Shown one piece after another: positions 49,827 through 56,294 of a stretch of DNA of 64,000 bases. The stretch is from the NCBI RefSeq assembly GCF_000403785.1, contig NZ_APHJ01000019.1:124001-188000 (forward strand), in the 5' to 3' direction. Each line of letters begins with the position of its first letter. Positions within the stretch are counted from its first letter, which is position 1. The notes below the pieces were generated by a model. That model was not told where the DNA came from and ran no database searches. It was given only the letters and a program-made list of their open reading frames with translations. This DNA is from Gillisia sp. CAL575 (GTDB lineage: Bacteria; Bacteroidota; Bacteroidia; Flavobacteriales; Flavobacteriaceae). Made by a program: the position numbers and the translations under genes.

Positions 49827-50281
49827 CCACGAATGCACGAATATCCTCTATAATAAAATTCGTTGATGCATTAGTTTATCTGCCTCAAAATTAGCTAAAA
49901 TTGCCAGTTTATTTCCAGAGATCTTCAAATAGTTTAAACATTGGGCAGTATGCCTATCGTTTAAATTGGTTATGGATTTTATTTCTAGAATTATTTTATC
50001 ATAAACAACAAAATCTGCAAAATAGTGATGTGGGAGAATAATATCTTTATAACTTATCTTATATTGTCTTTCTCTTTCAAAAGGAATACTTTTCAATTTC
50101 AATTCATACTGAATAGCATCTGAATAAACTGCTTCTAAAAATCCTCCTCCTAATTCATTATGGACATCAAATAAAACACCTAATAACTGATAGCTTTCTT
50201 CTTTGTACAGAATGTTTACCATTTTGAAGTTTTTAGTTGATTTTATTTGTAATCAGCAAAAAATTATTCGTGAATTCGTGG
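49827..50281. mobile_element. GxxExxY nuclease-like cassette bounded by 16-bp inverted repeats
   Basis: CCACGAATGCACGAAT at 49827-49842 and ATTCGTGAATTCGTGG at 50266-50281 are inverted copies with one difference. They bracket the GxxExxY gene and interrupt the ftsX-DUF3098 linkage with ~490 bp. No direct repeat or transposase is obvious. Confidence 0.6.
49848..50222 (-). CDS. GxxExxY protein (putative PDDEXK-type nuclease)
   Basis: 124 residues. The name motif is GFLEAVYSDAI; the nuclease-like core is HYFADFVVYDKIILEIKS (D...ExK). The family is widespread but poorly characterised, with DNA-recombination-related associations in some taxa. Located in a compact housekeeping cluster between inverted repeats. 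Whether it is functional is not known, but the frame is intact. Confidence 0.8.
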   Translation of the reverse strand: MVNILYKEESYQLLGVLFDVHNELGGGFLEAVYSDAIQYELKLKSIPFERERQYKISYKDIILPHHYFADFVVYDKIILEIKSITNLNDRHTAQCLNYLKISGNKLAILANFEADKLMHQRILL

Positions 50282-52225: not shown

Positions 52226-52308
52226 AATAGGACTTATAAAGAAGTTTAAAATTGTAAATTTGCGCGCATTACAGTTAAATATTATTGCCTAATAAGAAAA
52301 TATAGAGG

Positions 52309-55300
52309 ATGAGTTACCATTTTAATGAAATTGAAGCCAAGTGGCAAAAATATTGGGCAGAGAACCAAACTTTTAAAGCGAAGAATAAAAGTGATCTGCC
52401 AAAATTCTATGTGTTGGATATGTTTCCTTATCCGTCTGGAGCAGGATTACACGTTGGTCATCCTCTAGGATATATAGCTAGCGATATTTATGCAAGATTC
52501 AAACGCCATAAAGGTTTTAACGTATTGCATCCTCAGGGATATGATAGTTTTGGATTGCCTGCAGAGCAATATGCCATTCAAACCGGTCAGCATCCTGCGA
52601 TCACTACGGAAGATAATATTAAAAGGTACCGCCAACAATTGGATCAAATTGGGTTTTCATTCGATTGGAGTAGAGAAGTGCGCACCAGTGAATCAGATTA
52701 TTATCGCTGGACACAATGGATCTTCATTCAGCTTTTTGATTCTTGGTACGATAAGGAAAATGATAAAGCTCAGCCAATCTCTATTTTGGAGACTATCTTT
52801 TTTGCTGAAGGGAATACAAATGTAAACGCTGTTTGTGATGAGGATGTGGAAGCTTTTTCTGCGGACGAATGGAATGCCTTTTCTTCTGAAGAAAAACAAA
52901 AGATCCTTTTAAAATATAGACTTACTTATTTAGCTGAAACCGAAGTGAACTGGTGCCCGGAATTGGGAACTGTGTTGGCTAATGATGAAATTGTGAATGG
53001 AGTTTCTGAACGTGGAGGATTTCCAGTAGTTCGAAAAAAGATGACACAGTGGAGTATGCGTATTTCAGCTTATGCTCAACGATTATTAGATGATTCTGAA
53101 GCTTTAGATTGGCCACAACCTCTTAAAGATTCTCAAACCAACTGGATTGGAAGATCTAAAGGGGCGCTTGTAAAGTTCCAGATCTTAAACTCATCCCATC
53201 CCCAACCCTTCCCAGAGGGAAGGGAGCCAAGATACCTTACAGGTGACCCTCAGATTTCCGGAGAACTTTTACATCGTGCTAAAGAAATGCGTAAAAAACC
53301 AACAGAAGGAGAAGCTATTTTATGGCAAAAATTAAAAGCAAAAAAACTGGATTCTAAATTTAGAAGACAACATCCAATTGATAGTTATATAGTTGATTTT
53401 GCGTGTCTTTCTAAAAAATTAATAATTGAAGTGGATGGAGAAATTCATCTTCAACAAAAAGAGAAAGATGGAGAGCGTGAACTTCAGCTAAATCAAAAGC
53501 TTGGATATAGAGTTTTAAGATTTACGAATCAGGAAGTGCTTGAAGATATTAATGAAGTAATAAATAAAATAGAGAATACGCTAAACTCCCTCTCTATTGG
53601 AGAGGGCTGGGGAGAGAATGAGACCAAAACTGACAATAAAAAACATATCTCCGTATTCACCACTCGCCCAGACACTATTTTTGGAGTTAGCTTTATGACG
53701 CTTGCTCCGGAACATGAATTGGTGCAGGAAATAACAACATCAGAACAAAAAGAAGCGGTAAACGCTTACATCGCAAAATCGGCTAAACGCAGCGAACGTG
53801 AGCGTATGGCAGATGTAAAGACCATAAGTGGTGAATTTACAGGTGCATACGCTATTCATCCACTAAGCGGGGAGAAAATTCCAGTTTGGATTGGAGATTA
53901 TGTATTGGCAGGTTATGGAACAGGGGCAGTAATGTCGGTGCCATGTGGAGATCAGCGGGATTACGATTTCGCTAAGCATTTTGGATTGCCTATCCCTAAT
54001 ATCTTTGAGGGAATAGATATTTCTGAAGAGGCTTATGCTGAAAAAGATGGAACTAAGATCGCGAACAGTGATTTCTTAACTGGACTAGCTTATAAAGAAG
54101 CAACGCAAAAAGCAATTGAAGCCTTAGAAGCAGTGAATGCTGGAAAAGGAAAGATCAATTATAGATTGCGCGATGCCGTGTTTTCCAGACAGCGTTATTG
54201 GGGAGAGCCATTTCCTGTGTATTATGTTAATGGTTTACCGCAAATGATCGCAGAGGAACATTTGCCATTAAAATTACCAGAAGTGGAAAAATACCTGCCA
54301 ACTGAAGAAGGGGAGCCGCCATTAGGTCGCGCTACAACTTGGGCATGGGATTCAAATAAAAATAAAATTGTATCTAACGAGATGCTGAAACAAGTTCAGC
54401 ATGACGGAACTCAAAATGATGTCACCCCGAGCGGAGTCGAGGGGTCTTCAGGCAAAGGGATTTATCCTTTAGAACTAAACACAATGCCAGGTTGGGCTGG
54501 AAGTTCGTGGTATTTCTTTAGATATATGGATGCCGATAACGAGGAGATATTTGTTTCAGAAGAAGCTCAGAAATACTGGGAAAATGTAGATCTATATATT
54601 GGTGGGAGCGAGCATGCTACGGGACATTTACTATATTCCAGATTTTGGACGAAATTCTTATATGACCGCGGAATGGTTTCAGTTAAAGAACCTTTTAAAA
54701 AACTCATCAATCAAGGGATGATCCTTGGAATGAGTGCAATGGTTTATAGAATAGAAGGAGAAAACACCTTTATTTCTAAAGGATTAATAGAAGGTAAATC
54801 TGTTCAACCTATCCATGCAGATGTTTCTTTTATAAATTCATCTGACGAATTAGATGTGGAAGCCTTTAAAAGCTGGAGACCGGAATTTGCAGATGCTAAA
54901 TTCATTCTAGAGAACGGAAAGTATGTAGTTGGAAGAGAAGTCGAAAAAATGTCTAAGTCCAAATACAATGTGGTAAGTCCAGACGAGATCTGTTCTCAAT
55001 ATGGTGCAGATACTTTGCGTATGTACGAAATGTTCTTGGGTCCATTAGAGCAAGCAAAACCTTGGAATACAGCCGGGATAACTGGAGTTCATAATTTCTT
55101 AAAGAAAATGTGGAAGCTTTATCATAACGATGAGGTGTTTGCTGTTTCAGAGGAAAAAGCTTCAGCCGATTCTATGAAGACTTTGCATAAGACCATTAAA
55201 AAGGTCACGGAAGATATAGAAGAGTTCAGTTTTAATACTTCGGTATCTACATTTATGATCTGTGTAAATGAGTTAACAGCTCAAAAATGCAATCAGCGTG

Positions 55301-55626
55301 AGCTCTTAGAGCCGTTAGCTATATTAATTGCCCCTTATGCGCCACATATTGCAGAAGAACTTTGGAGTAAATTAGGTCACGACTCTTCTATTACAACCGC
55401 AGAATACCCTGTTTACAAGGAAAGCTATTTAGTAGAAAGCAGCAAGGATTATCCCATTTCCTTTAATGGAAAAATGAGGTTTACTATGGAGTTGCCTTTA
55501 GAAATGGGTAGAGATGAAATTGAAAAAGCTGTGATGGCAGATGAGCGTACCCAAAAGCAATTGGATGGTAGAGCTCCTAAAAAGGTGATCGTTGTTCCAG
55601 GTAAGATCGTGAATATTGTGGGCTAG
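52309..55626 (+). CDS. leuS: leucyl-tRNA synthetase with in-frame DUF559 nuclease insertion and a repeat insertion
   Basis: 1105 residues, well above the ~930-960 expected for Bacteroidota LeuRS. The class I core is intact: HIGH-type HVGH in YPSGAGLHVGHPLGY, the KMSKS motif at ~K880 (EKMSKSKYN), the FTTRPDTIFG editing-domain motif at ~450, and a C-terminal anticodon domain. Two in-frame insertions add ~168 residues: residues ~295-437 (a DUF559 nuclease domain) and ~690-714 (a palindromic repeat). The first lies at the start of the CP1 editing domain between KFQI and HISVFTTR; the second lies before GIYPLELNTMPGWAGSSW in the catalytic half. The frame is open throughout. Whether the insert is spliced, cleaved or tolerated is unknown. 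Confidence 0.92.
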   Translation: MSYHFNEIEAKWQKYWAENQTFKAKNKSDLPKFYVLDMFPYPSGAGLHVGHPLGYIASDIYARFKRHKGFNVLHPQGYDSFGLPAEQYAIQTGQHPAITTEDNIKRYRQQLDQIGFSFDWSREVRTSESDYYRWTQWIFIQLFDSWYDKENDKAQPISILETIFFAEGNTNVNAVCDEDVEAFSADEWNAFSSEEKQKILLKYRLTYLAETEVNWCPELGTVLANDEIVNGVSERGGFPVVRKKMTQWSMRISAYAQRLLDDSEALDWPQPLKDSQTNWIGRSKGALVKFQILNSSHPQPFPEGREPRYLTGDPQISGELLHRAKEMRKKPTEGEAILWQKLKAKKLDSKFRRQHPIDSYIVDFACLSKKLIIEVDGEIHLQQKEKDGERELQLNQKLGYRVLRFTNQEVLEDINEVINKIENTLNSLSIGEGWGENETKTDNKKHISVFTTRPDTIFGVSFMTLAPEHELVQEITTSEQKEAVNAYIAKSAKRSERERMADVKTISGEFTGAYAIHPLSGEKIPVWIGDYVLAGYGTGAVMSVPCGDQRDYDFAKHFGLPIPNIFEGIDISEEAYAEKDGTKIANSDFLTGLAYKEATQKAIEALEAVNAGKGKINYRLRDAVFSRQRYWGEPFPVYYVNGLPQMIAEEHLPLKLPEVEKYLPTEEGEPPLGRATTWAWDSNKNKIVSNEMLKQVQHDGTQNDVTPSGVEGSSGKGIYPLELNTMPGWAGSSWYFFRYMDADNEEIFVSEEAQKYWENVDLYIGGSEHATGHLLYSRFWTKFLYDRGMVSVKEPFKKLINQGMILGMSAMVYRIEGENTFISKGLIEGKSVQPIHADVSFINSSDELDVEAFKSWRPEFADAKFILENGKYVVGREVEKMSKSKYNVVSPDEICSQYGADTLRMYEMFLGPLEQAKPWNTAGITGVHNFLKKMWKLYHNDEVFAVSEEKASADSMKTLHKTIKKVTEDIEEFSFNTSVSTFMICVNELTAQKCNQRELLEPLAILIAPYAPHIAEELWSKLGHDSSITTAEYPVYKESYLVESSKDYPISFNGKMRFTMELPLEMGRDEIEKAVMADERTQKQLDGRAPKKVIVVPGKIVNIVG
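53188..53619 (+). mobile_element. DUF559 (Vsr-like PDDEXK) nuclease cassette in-frame within leuS, bounded by inverted repeats
   Basis: The cassette encodes residues ~295-437 of the LeuS chain. Left repeat 53196-53225 (CATCCCCAACCCTTCCCAGA...) and right repeat 53586-53616 (CTCCCTCTCTATTGGAGAGG...) are imperfect inverted copies, each also palindromic. Between them a complete DUF559 domain is read: RAKEMRKKPTEGEAILWQKL, KFRRQHPI, D363 in YIVDFAC, and E374/D376 in IIEVDGEIH, then RVLRFTNQEVLEDI. Free-standing DUF559 proteins have the same order. No start codon is needed, since it is translated as part of LeuS. Confidence 0.8.
54376..54450 (+). repeat. palindromic repeat inserted in-frame in leuS
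   Basis: ATGCTGAA-acaag-TTCAGCAT is a perfect 8-bp-arm hairpin, followed by TCACCCCGAGCGGAGTCGAG, which carries the GAGCGGAGTCGAG core seen at 58751-58794 and in other intergenic copies. It encodes about 25 residues (NEMLKQVQHDGTQNDVTPSG...) absent from ordinary LeuS at this place. Confidence 0.7.
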
Positions 55627-55644
55627 GTTTTAGCTTTTTAGCAG

Positions 55645-55675
55645 TTGTATTAATAAATGCCTTTAGTTATATTTG
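55645..55675 (+). promoter_or_regulatory. promoter directly abutting the DUF4230 start codon
   Basis: TTG at 55645-55647, 20 bp, then TATATTTG at 55668-55675. The ATG is at 55680, where transcription should begin, so the mRNA may be leaderless. Confidence 0.55.
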
Positions 55676-55679
55676 ATAT

Positions 55680-56294
55680 ATGGAGTATCTTTTTATAGGA
55701 CTTGCCGCAGGAGCCATTTTGGCCTATTTTTTATTTTCAAAACTAAATAGCCAAAAAAGTAAATCTAGAGCAGATGAACAGTCTATTATTTTGATGGATA
55801 AGATCAAAAGTGTGTGCAAGTTTATCTCTGTTGAAGGAGATTTTTCTGAGATCTACCATTACGAGAATCTTAAAGAGAAATATGTAAGCTTACTCTTAGG
55901 AAAGAAAAAAGCAATCATTCTTATCACCGCAAAAGCACATGTAGGTTTCGATCTTAGTAAAGTGAGGATGGATAGCGATATTGAGAATAAGAAAATCATC
56001 CTAACCAATTTCCCTAAGCCTGAGCTACTCACTGTAGAAACCGATTTTAAATATTACGATAAGCGTGAAGGTTGGGCTAATCCTTTTACTACTTCAGATC
56101 TTACCGATATTAGCAGAGATTCAAAAAAACATATTGTAGATAAGATCCCGCAAAGCGGATTGCTTGAAAAAGCAGAAAAAGAAGCTTTGGGAACTATTCT
56201 TTTGATGGAGAAAATCGTGGAAACCATAGGTTGGAAATTAGATTACACCGCCTTGGAAATGGCTTCTGAAGAGCCAGCGAAGATTTCGAAGTAG
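55680..56294 (+). CDS. DUF4230 protein with N-terminal membrane anchor
   Basis: 204 residues. One hydrophobic helix at residues ~2-20 (FIGLAAGAILAYFLFSKL) followed by a cytoplasmic or periplasmic DUF4230 domain with KFISVEGDFSEIYHYE, KKAIILITAKAHVGFDLSKV and a C-terminal helix (LGTILLMEKIVETIGW). Function unknown. Follows leuS by 53 bp. Confidence 0.75.
   Translation: MEYLFIGLAAGAILAYFLFSKLNSQKSKSRADEQSIILMDKIKSVCKFISVEGDFSEIYHYENLKEKYVSLLLGKKKAIILITAKAHVGFDLSKVRMDSDIENKKIILTNFPKPELLTVETDFKYYDKREGWANPFTTSDLTDISRDSKKHIVDKIPQSGLLEKAEKEALGTILLMEKIVETIGWKLDYTALEMASEEPAKISK

Follow-up and report, generated by a model that had tools for sequence, protein, structure and literature searches.

How can the gene for a nuclease lie within the reading frame of an essential gene without inactivating it? 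Splicing is the usual explanation for homing elements: introns and inteins take them out again, and this lets them survive in essential genes. The question is raised by leuS of Gillisia sp. CAL575, which lies in a window of 64,000 nucleotides (contig NZ_APHJ01000019.1, positions 124,001 to 188,000; the window is this whole stretch of DNA). An initial annotation had proposed that a complete DUF559 nuclease is read in frame inside this gene and bracketed by inverted repeats, as a mobile gene that recalls inteins and homing endonucleases and shows no splicing motifs.

The Host Gene and Its Insert

The leuS gene is a single open frame of 1105 codons (Table 1), and the Pfam model PF04480 (DUF559) matches its product with an E-value of 5.1e-34 when the whole protein is searched and of 1.6e-35 when positions 53188-53619 are searched alone. 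The host protein is a leucyl-tRNA synthetase (LeuRS), as judged from the match to TIGR00396 (leuS_bact, E 4e-271) and from Pfam matches to the catalytic, editing and anticodon-binding domains. All synthetase motifs are thus kept, the frame stays open throughout, and the nuclease domain has been inserted without breaking the gene, as the initial annotation had held. The domain is found in frame between the catalytic core and the editing domain. In an alignment with LeuRS of T. thermophilus (1h3n), the match ends at query residue 292 (target 236) and restarts at query residue 446 (target 242); consequently, the insert sits in a short turn leading into the editing domain. At this point the linker is 486 nt long in Gillisia sp. 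CAL575 but only 42 nt long in four relatives with an empty site, an excess of 444 nt or 148 codons, and comparison with close relatives thus finds the insert absent from some of them.

The inverted repeats framing the insert had been placed correctly to within a few bases. Their arms are 37 nt each, 70% complementary and spaced 359 nt apart, with a gapped score of 25, whereas 20 shuffles gave 14.2 on average and 19 at most. In the AlphaFold2 model of the whole LeuRS (mean pLDDT 75.1, pTM 0.64), a folded domain is predicted at approximately residues 317-427, flanked by linkers at 295-310 and 430-443 with pLDDT below 50. An assembly artefact was considered as the source of this arrangement and rejected as very unlikely, because the arrangement recurs across many other assemblies. 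Elsewhere in the window, 3 kb from the insert, there is a small gene of the nuclease superfamily (49848-50222, minus strand) that encodes a PDDEXK_3 protein of 124 aa (PF13366).

Table 1. Features of the leuS locus, in positions of the window.
Feature	Position	Strand	Basis
leuS, host gene, leucyl-tRNA synthetase with in-frame insert, 1105 aa	52309..55626	+	Open frame, Pfam, TIGR00396
Linker of 486 nt that holds the whole insert	53167..53652	+	Coordinates derived from residue positions; 42 nt in four empty relatives
Left palindrome arm, REP-like hairpin with CCCCAACCC tail, translated as linker	53190..53226	+	Repeat search; low-confidence model segment 295-310
DUF559 (PF04480) nuclease domain, residues 321-425; catalytic D363, E374, D376	53269..53583	+	Pfam, alignments, model
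Right palindrome arm, inverted relative of the left arm, translated as linker	53586..53622	+	Repeat search; low-confidence model segment 430-443
Second in-frame leuS insert, a different REP palindrome without nuclease, ~EMLKQVQHDGTQNDVTPSGVEGSS	54379..54450	+	Low-confidence model segment 695-713

The second site of leuS is also variable. Other Gillisia carry a different REP there or none, so that two kinds of REP are found across the genus, and in three loci from genomes of families f17/f22 (L156, L160, L164) the site is occupied by a DUF559 element, with the LeuRS host confirmed by Pfam/NCBIfam for one representative.

A Conserved Nuclease Related to Homing Endonucleases

The three residues that had been named as catalytic are invariant in an alignment of 39 LeuRS rows. 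Among 198 rows taken from HMM hits, in which some genomes are counted twice, the first aspartate is kept in 198, the glutamate in 197 and the second aspartate in 197. The dN/dS ratio lies between 0.03 and 0.26 in nine of 14 pairs, dS of the insert being saturated in the remaining five; the nuclease domain is thus under purifying selection. One strongly diverged in-frame insert (L016, in leuS of G017) has one catalytic aspartate changed to glutamate and is apparently a dead copy. In addition, a methionine in the N-terminal part of the domain (MR, within KEMR) keeps the same offset in 101 of the 109 leuS rows and is found in none of 11 stand-alone rows, by a crude count. Translation of a free nuclease could possibly start at this internal codon.

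The resemblance to homing endonucleases extends to sequence and structure. When PDB chains were searched with a profile of the leuS inserts (hmmsearch), 3hrl (NGO0050) matched with an E-value of 1e-29 and 3r3p, the catalytic domain of I-Bth0305I, with 2.2e-6; no other PDB chain matched below 0.001. With Foldseek, 3hrl was again found at rank 1 (2.5e-6), I-Bth0305I at ranks 2 and 3 (1.4e-3 and 2.5e-3) and Vsr at rank 9 (0.10). The DUF559 domain and the catalytic domain of I-Bth0305I are thus homologous. When the domain is aligned to 3r3p, only one catalytic letter of three is common to both: the glutamate is kept, the aspartate of VDF-D stands opposite an alanine and the second aspartate opposite an asparagine.

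No Intein or Intron Signal in leuS

Since an essential gene has been hit without loss, and since the palindromes at both ends could pair in RNA, an unrecognized form of RNA or protein splicing might excise the insert, which would then be a new type of intron or intein. No Hint or intein domain of Pfam is found in LeuS at an E-value of 0.01, and no group I or II intron of Rfam is found over 52300-55700 up to an E-value of 1, the single match being a chance one to a miRNA; the earlier statement that splicing motifs are absent agrees with both searches. Moreover, length and phase of the frame are preserved, also in a relative that retains only a scar of the insert (G007), and the occupied sites are linkers rather than conserved residues. 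We therefore regard excision by splicing as extremely improbable. Instead, this element, which carries a homing-type nuclease, seems to be maintained as an additional domain that the host tolerates and that no splicing removes.

The Palindromes Delimit a Mobile Unit

The borders of the unit are seen most clearly where copies can be compared. In two leuS genes of Dokdonia (L223 and L230), a common block of 423 nt with six mismatches begins at the left palindrome and stops at the right one, while the flanks differ at 36 of 276 and 35 of 276 positions. A single metH gene (G252) has two copies of 418 nt at unrelated sites. These are identical at 345 of 418 positions, their flanks are non-homologous, and their homology ends exactly at AGCCCCCC/GGGGGGCT, which form terminal inverted repeats at both copies as in a classical insertion sequence and are weaker elsewhere. 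No target-site duplication was seen by eye in the flanks of these two copies. Likewise, the palindromes can be aligned at both ends of two copies in another genome (G586), one in a GATase_5 protein and the other in a UvrD-type helicase. A palindrome-bounded unit is thus mobile among core genes, in agreement with the initial description of the insert as a mobile gene with palindromic borders; its transfer between species is described below.

In other elements the ends are less sharply preserved. In 24 of 57 internal inserts, 53 of the best 80 named loci and 34 of 40 loci from the phylum, the terminal repeats score above every one of 20 shuffles; since many others do not, old copies have partly lost them. 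Nor are the ends unique to each element, since own left and right pairs are no better than mismatched ones for internal inserts, and the mean fraction of mismatched partners that fit as well is 0.46 for internal inserts, 0.35 for the best named loci and 0.15 for the phylum set. The repeats are a family of REP-like hairpins common to many elements, and hence the left end of one fits the right ends of others about equally well. In this respect the initial account of the repeats needs correction. In the genome of Gillisia sp. CAL575, exact copies of the palindrome head are found at five places, of which two are the ends of the insert, and copies with one mismatch at three more, compared to two occurrences of a reversed control pattern. 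Two intergenic hairpin pairs approximately 125 bp apart (L125 1425-1670, G000:C27) carry the palindrome of the insert and are possibly non-autonomous units.

The sites themselves are permissive. At the leuS insert site, one locus (L021) holds another REP without a nuclease, and a second metH site is found empty, with a short palindromic insert (L071), with a degenerate longer insert (L066), with a different insert (L103) or with the element (L065, L089). Consequently, the nuclease is not needed for insertion there, and the view of the leuS site as one occupied by a mobile nuclease, which is right about mobility, has to be corrected: the site is a permissive linker that also takes REPs without one. 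Because the sites are linkers used by different REPs, the inserts could be passive decoration, with REPs and the DNA between them dropping into permissive linkers, ordinary homologous recombination spreading them and the nuclease being irrelevant. This would leave the conserved catalysis, the fidelity of insert lineages to their sites and the sharp borders at the palindromes unaccounted for, and we consider it very improbable.

The same REP-only inserts at the leuS and metH sites, together with element ends that are REP-like hairpins with a tail, also fit a unit moved as REPs are, by a RAYT (Y1) transposase acting in trans, with DUF559 as a passenger or only a helper. REPs inside genes are described in passages of PMC3733652, and a Y1 transposase is present in 11 of the 14 element-bearing or scarred genomes searched. 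By contrast, there are no Y1 matches in Gillisia sp. CAL575 (G000), G004 and G014, all of which carry the leuS insert. The catalytic residues hardly vary, dN/dS is low, and lineages keep to one gene site, a pattern that free transposition would not give. Movement by RAYT is thus rather unlikely.

Presence, Replacement and Exchange of Inserts

The distribution of the insert is sporadic even within the genus. Among 15 same-genus genomes other than Gillisia sp. CAL575 itself, five have the leuS insert (G001, G002, G004, G006, G014), five have an empty linker (G003, G005, G009, G010, G015) and one has an in-frame scar that keeps a right palindrome and lacks the nuclease (G007); the other four are unscored (G008, G011, G012, G013). 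The inserts of the genus fall into two lineages and one chimera, that of G006, in which the first lineage accounts for the left palindrome and the second for the body. Gillisia sp. CAL575 and its sister in the leuS tree, Gillisia mitskevichiae (G014), carry different lineages, and Gillisia sp. CAL575 and G002 carry the same one. One insert lineage has thus been replaced by another at a single site. On a wider leuS tree of 43 rows (29 with insert and 14 empty, 11 of 54 loci having been dropped for missing anchors), presence and absence require 10 changes, a number that 58 of 500 shuffles equal or undercut, so the presence of the insert is nearly unclustered.

Trees and codons agree that the unit is exchanged between species. 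The insert data reject the topology of the leuS host (delta lnL 357, AU p 8e-79) in a test with 28 of 31 rows, L016 being left out for its long branch and L086 and L098 because their anchors were not found. The whole-leuS tree is also rejected at 0.05 by all seven host windows of 124 columns (delta lnL 51-110), and for every window the insert tree fits worse, by 178-397 log units; thus, the AU p-value alone is unspecific, and it is the size of the conflict that is specific. At synonymous codons, 44 of 5151 pairs from 102 leuS loci are more alike in the insert than in the host at p<0.001, and none is less alike; these pairs are not independent, some genomes are present twice, and part of the 44 are low-identity pairs of a single row (L098), in which codon bias may contribute. 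Among 88 pairs with host identity above 0.88, 21 have insert identity below 0.65. For Gillisia sp. CAL575 and G002, dS is 0.38 in the insert and 0.96 in the host. Co-conversion of the flanking exon is not claimed, as an upstream hint in this pair is offset by site-adjacent host windows that do not prefer the insert tree.

Conflict with the host tree is weak for inserts in metH (19 rows, AU p 0.031, delta lnL 29.8) and recG (11 rows, AU p 0.0042, delta lnL 29.9), and these inserts may therefore be inherited mostly vertically. This weak conflict, the purifying selection on the nuclease and the persistence, across at least five family groups (f1, f7, f31, f49, f60), of inserts at a single metH site would be expected of a domesticated domain that is useful to LeuRS, RecG, MetH and others, for instance in defence or quality control, the conflict in leuS then being due to ordinary recombination of that gene. 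Such a benefit is hard to reconcile with the absence or scarring of the insert in close relatives, with hosts that are unrelated, with a transferred block that stops at the palindromes and not within the gene, and with two copies in a single metH; domestication is accordingly improbable.

Host Genes across the Bacteroidota

PF04480 is found in at least 188 of 397 genomes of the family and in at least 222 of 395 of the phylum. From these, 60 and 40 loci, respectively, were examined; as they were picked mostly for long open frames, they are no measure of frequency. Besides LeuRS, the hosts confirmed by Pfam/NCBIfam, with one representative each, are MetH, RecG, IleRS, HemD, HisD, HsdR, HsdM, type ISP and Eco57I-type enzymes, UvrD-type helicases, a MeaB/methylmalonyl-CoA mutase fusion, HisF, HemF, RNase H, N-formylglutamate amidohydrolase, peptidase M23 and GATase_5; the remaining rows were assigned through flanking motifs. 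The best 80 named loci were selected by similarity to leuS inserts, and 79 of them lie at the insert site of leuS (68 by motif and 11 by eye), one of which (L205) has a frame that stops 26 codons past the DUF559 domain. The other (L231) lies in a helicase gene, as judged by its flanks. Many DUF559 domains are also found in restriction-modification proteins (L131-L170: HsdR, HsdM, type ISP and Eco57I-like), where palindrome-like linkers occur too. In the genome of Gillisia sp. CAL575, the sole other PF04480 match is a stand-alone gene with a frame of 146 codons (L002 1501-1809, G000:C20:356490-356798).

Insert lineages mostly stay with one host gene. Host-gene labels change 29 times on an insert tree of 118 rows, compared to a minimum of 27 and a mean of 80.7 after shuffling, and the metH inserts of families f31, f49 and f60 adjoin those of f1. 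A branch with support 96/97 separates 76 rows, with the inserts of leuS, metH, recG, ileS, hisD and helicase genes, from 42 rows comprising stand-alone genes, most restriction-modification hosts and N-terminal fusions.

A Proposed Model for Homing without Splicing

The element is best described as a mobile unit of approximately 420-440 nt whose sole cargo is a DUF559 nuclease, Vsr-like and related to the EDxHD enzymes, bounded by palindromes. Because a single open reading frame runs through its whole length, it can sit in a host gene and be translated as an extra domain, presumably carried on two floppy linkers that the palindromes encode. We infer that the nuclease drives the movement of the element: it would nick or cut alleles or palindromes that lack the element, and repair from the filled allele would copy the element in, in effect homing without an intron or an intein. 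A search for a target sequence of the nuclease gave no result. The host protein would tolerate this because insertion takes place in linkers or at domain borders, and new sites would be founded rarely, through palindrome-mediated jumps. Taken as one statement, a palindrome-bounded, translated, non-splicing and homing-endonuclease-like selfish element that spreads by nuclease-driven homing is the probable explanation. Whether it further constitutes a new class of mobile element, that is, a homing-nuclease passenger domain in core genes across Bacteroidota, translated, non-splicing and palindrome-bounded, with one lineage per gene site and nuclease-driven copying into empty or palindrome-only alleles, is evenly balanced in our judgment.

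If this is true, in-frame linkers solve the problem that inteins and introns solve through splicing. The origin of inteins and of domain insertions would become testable, and a route would be apparent by which a selfish gene adds a folded domain to LeuRS, MetH or RecG. Annotators would also gain a reason for the DUF559 domains they meet in core enzymes. LeuRS is a drug target, and the entrance of its editing domain carries a DUF559 domain in many Flavobacteriaceae.

Comparison with Known Systems

In the openly licensed literature, no report was found of a DUF559 element in leuS, metH or recG, or of a nuclease-bearing in-frame palindromic insert. In-frame palindromic inserts as such are already known from Rickettsia: according to passages of PMC10969869, the palindromic elements of this genus lie in frame in unrelated genes, at sites that are likely linkers. 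The DUF559 element likewise places a palindrome in frame in unrelated open frames. Nevertheless, Rickettsia palindromic elements are approximately 150 bp long and encode short peptides, whereas the DUF559 unit measures approximately 420-440 nt, encodes a conserved nuclease and forms gene-specific lineages. With REPIN/RAYT systems (REPtrons) it shares an inverted pair of REPs as the mobile unit and low-copy REPs elsewhere in the genome; it differs in carrying a PD-(D/E)XK-like nuclease rather than a Y1 transposase, which is absent from the genome of Gillisia sp. CAL575.

Inteins with a homing endonuclease domain also place a nuclease in frame within a core protein, with a sporadic distribution and exchange between species. 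By contrast, the DUF559 element has no Hint domain and occupies linkers, not conserved active-site motifs. Stand-alone DUF559 proteins, such as NGO0050 (3hrl) and that of Gillisia sp. CAL575, have the same domain and residues, although the 10 stand-alone rows fall in the opposite half of the tree from the internal inserts. Finally, a DUF559 gene is filed under EDxHD endonucleases in PMC9403480, and I-Bth0305I is described in passages of PMC3943268 as the protein of a mobile intron, equipped with an extended DNA-binding region. The leuS element and this EDxHD homing endonuclease (3r3p) have homologous catalytic domains, by profile and by fold, and a sporadic distribution with exchange of alleles. 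Unlike I-Bth0305I, the leuS element has neither an intron nor a separate DNA-binding domain, and its nuclease is translated inside the host protein.
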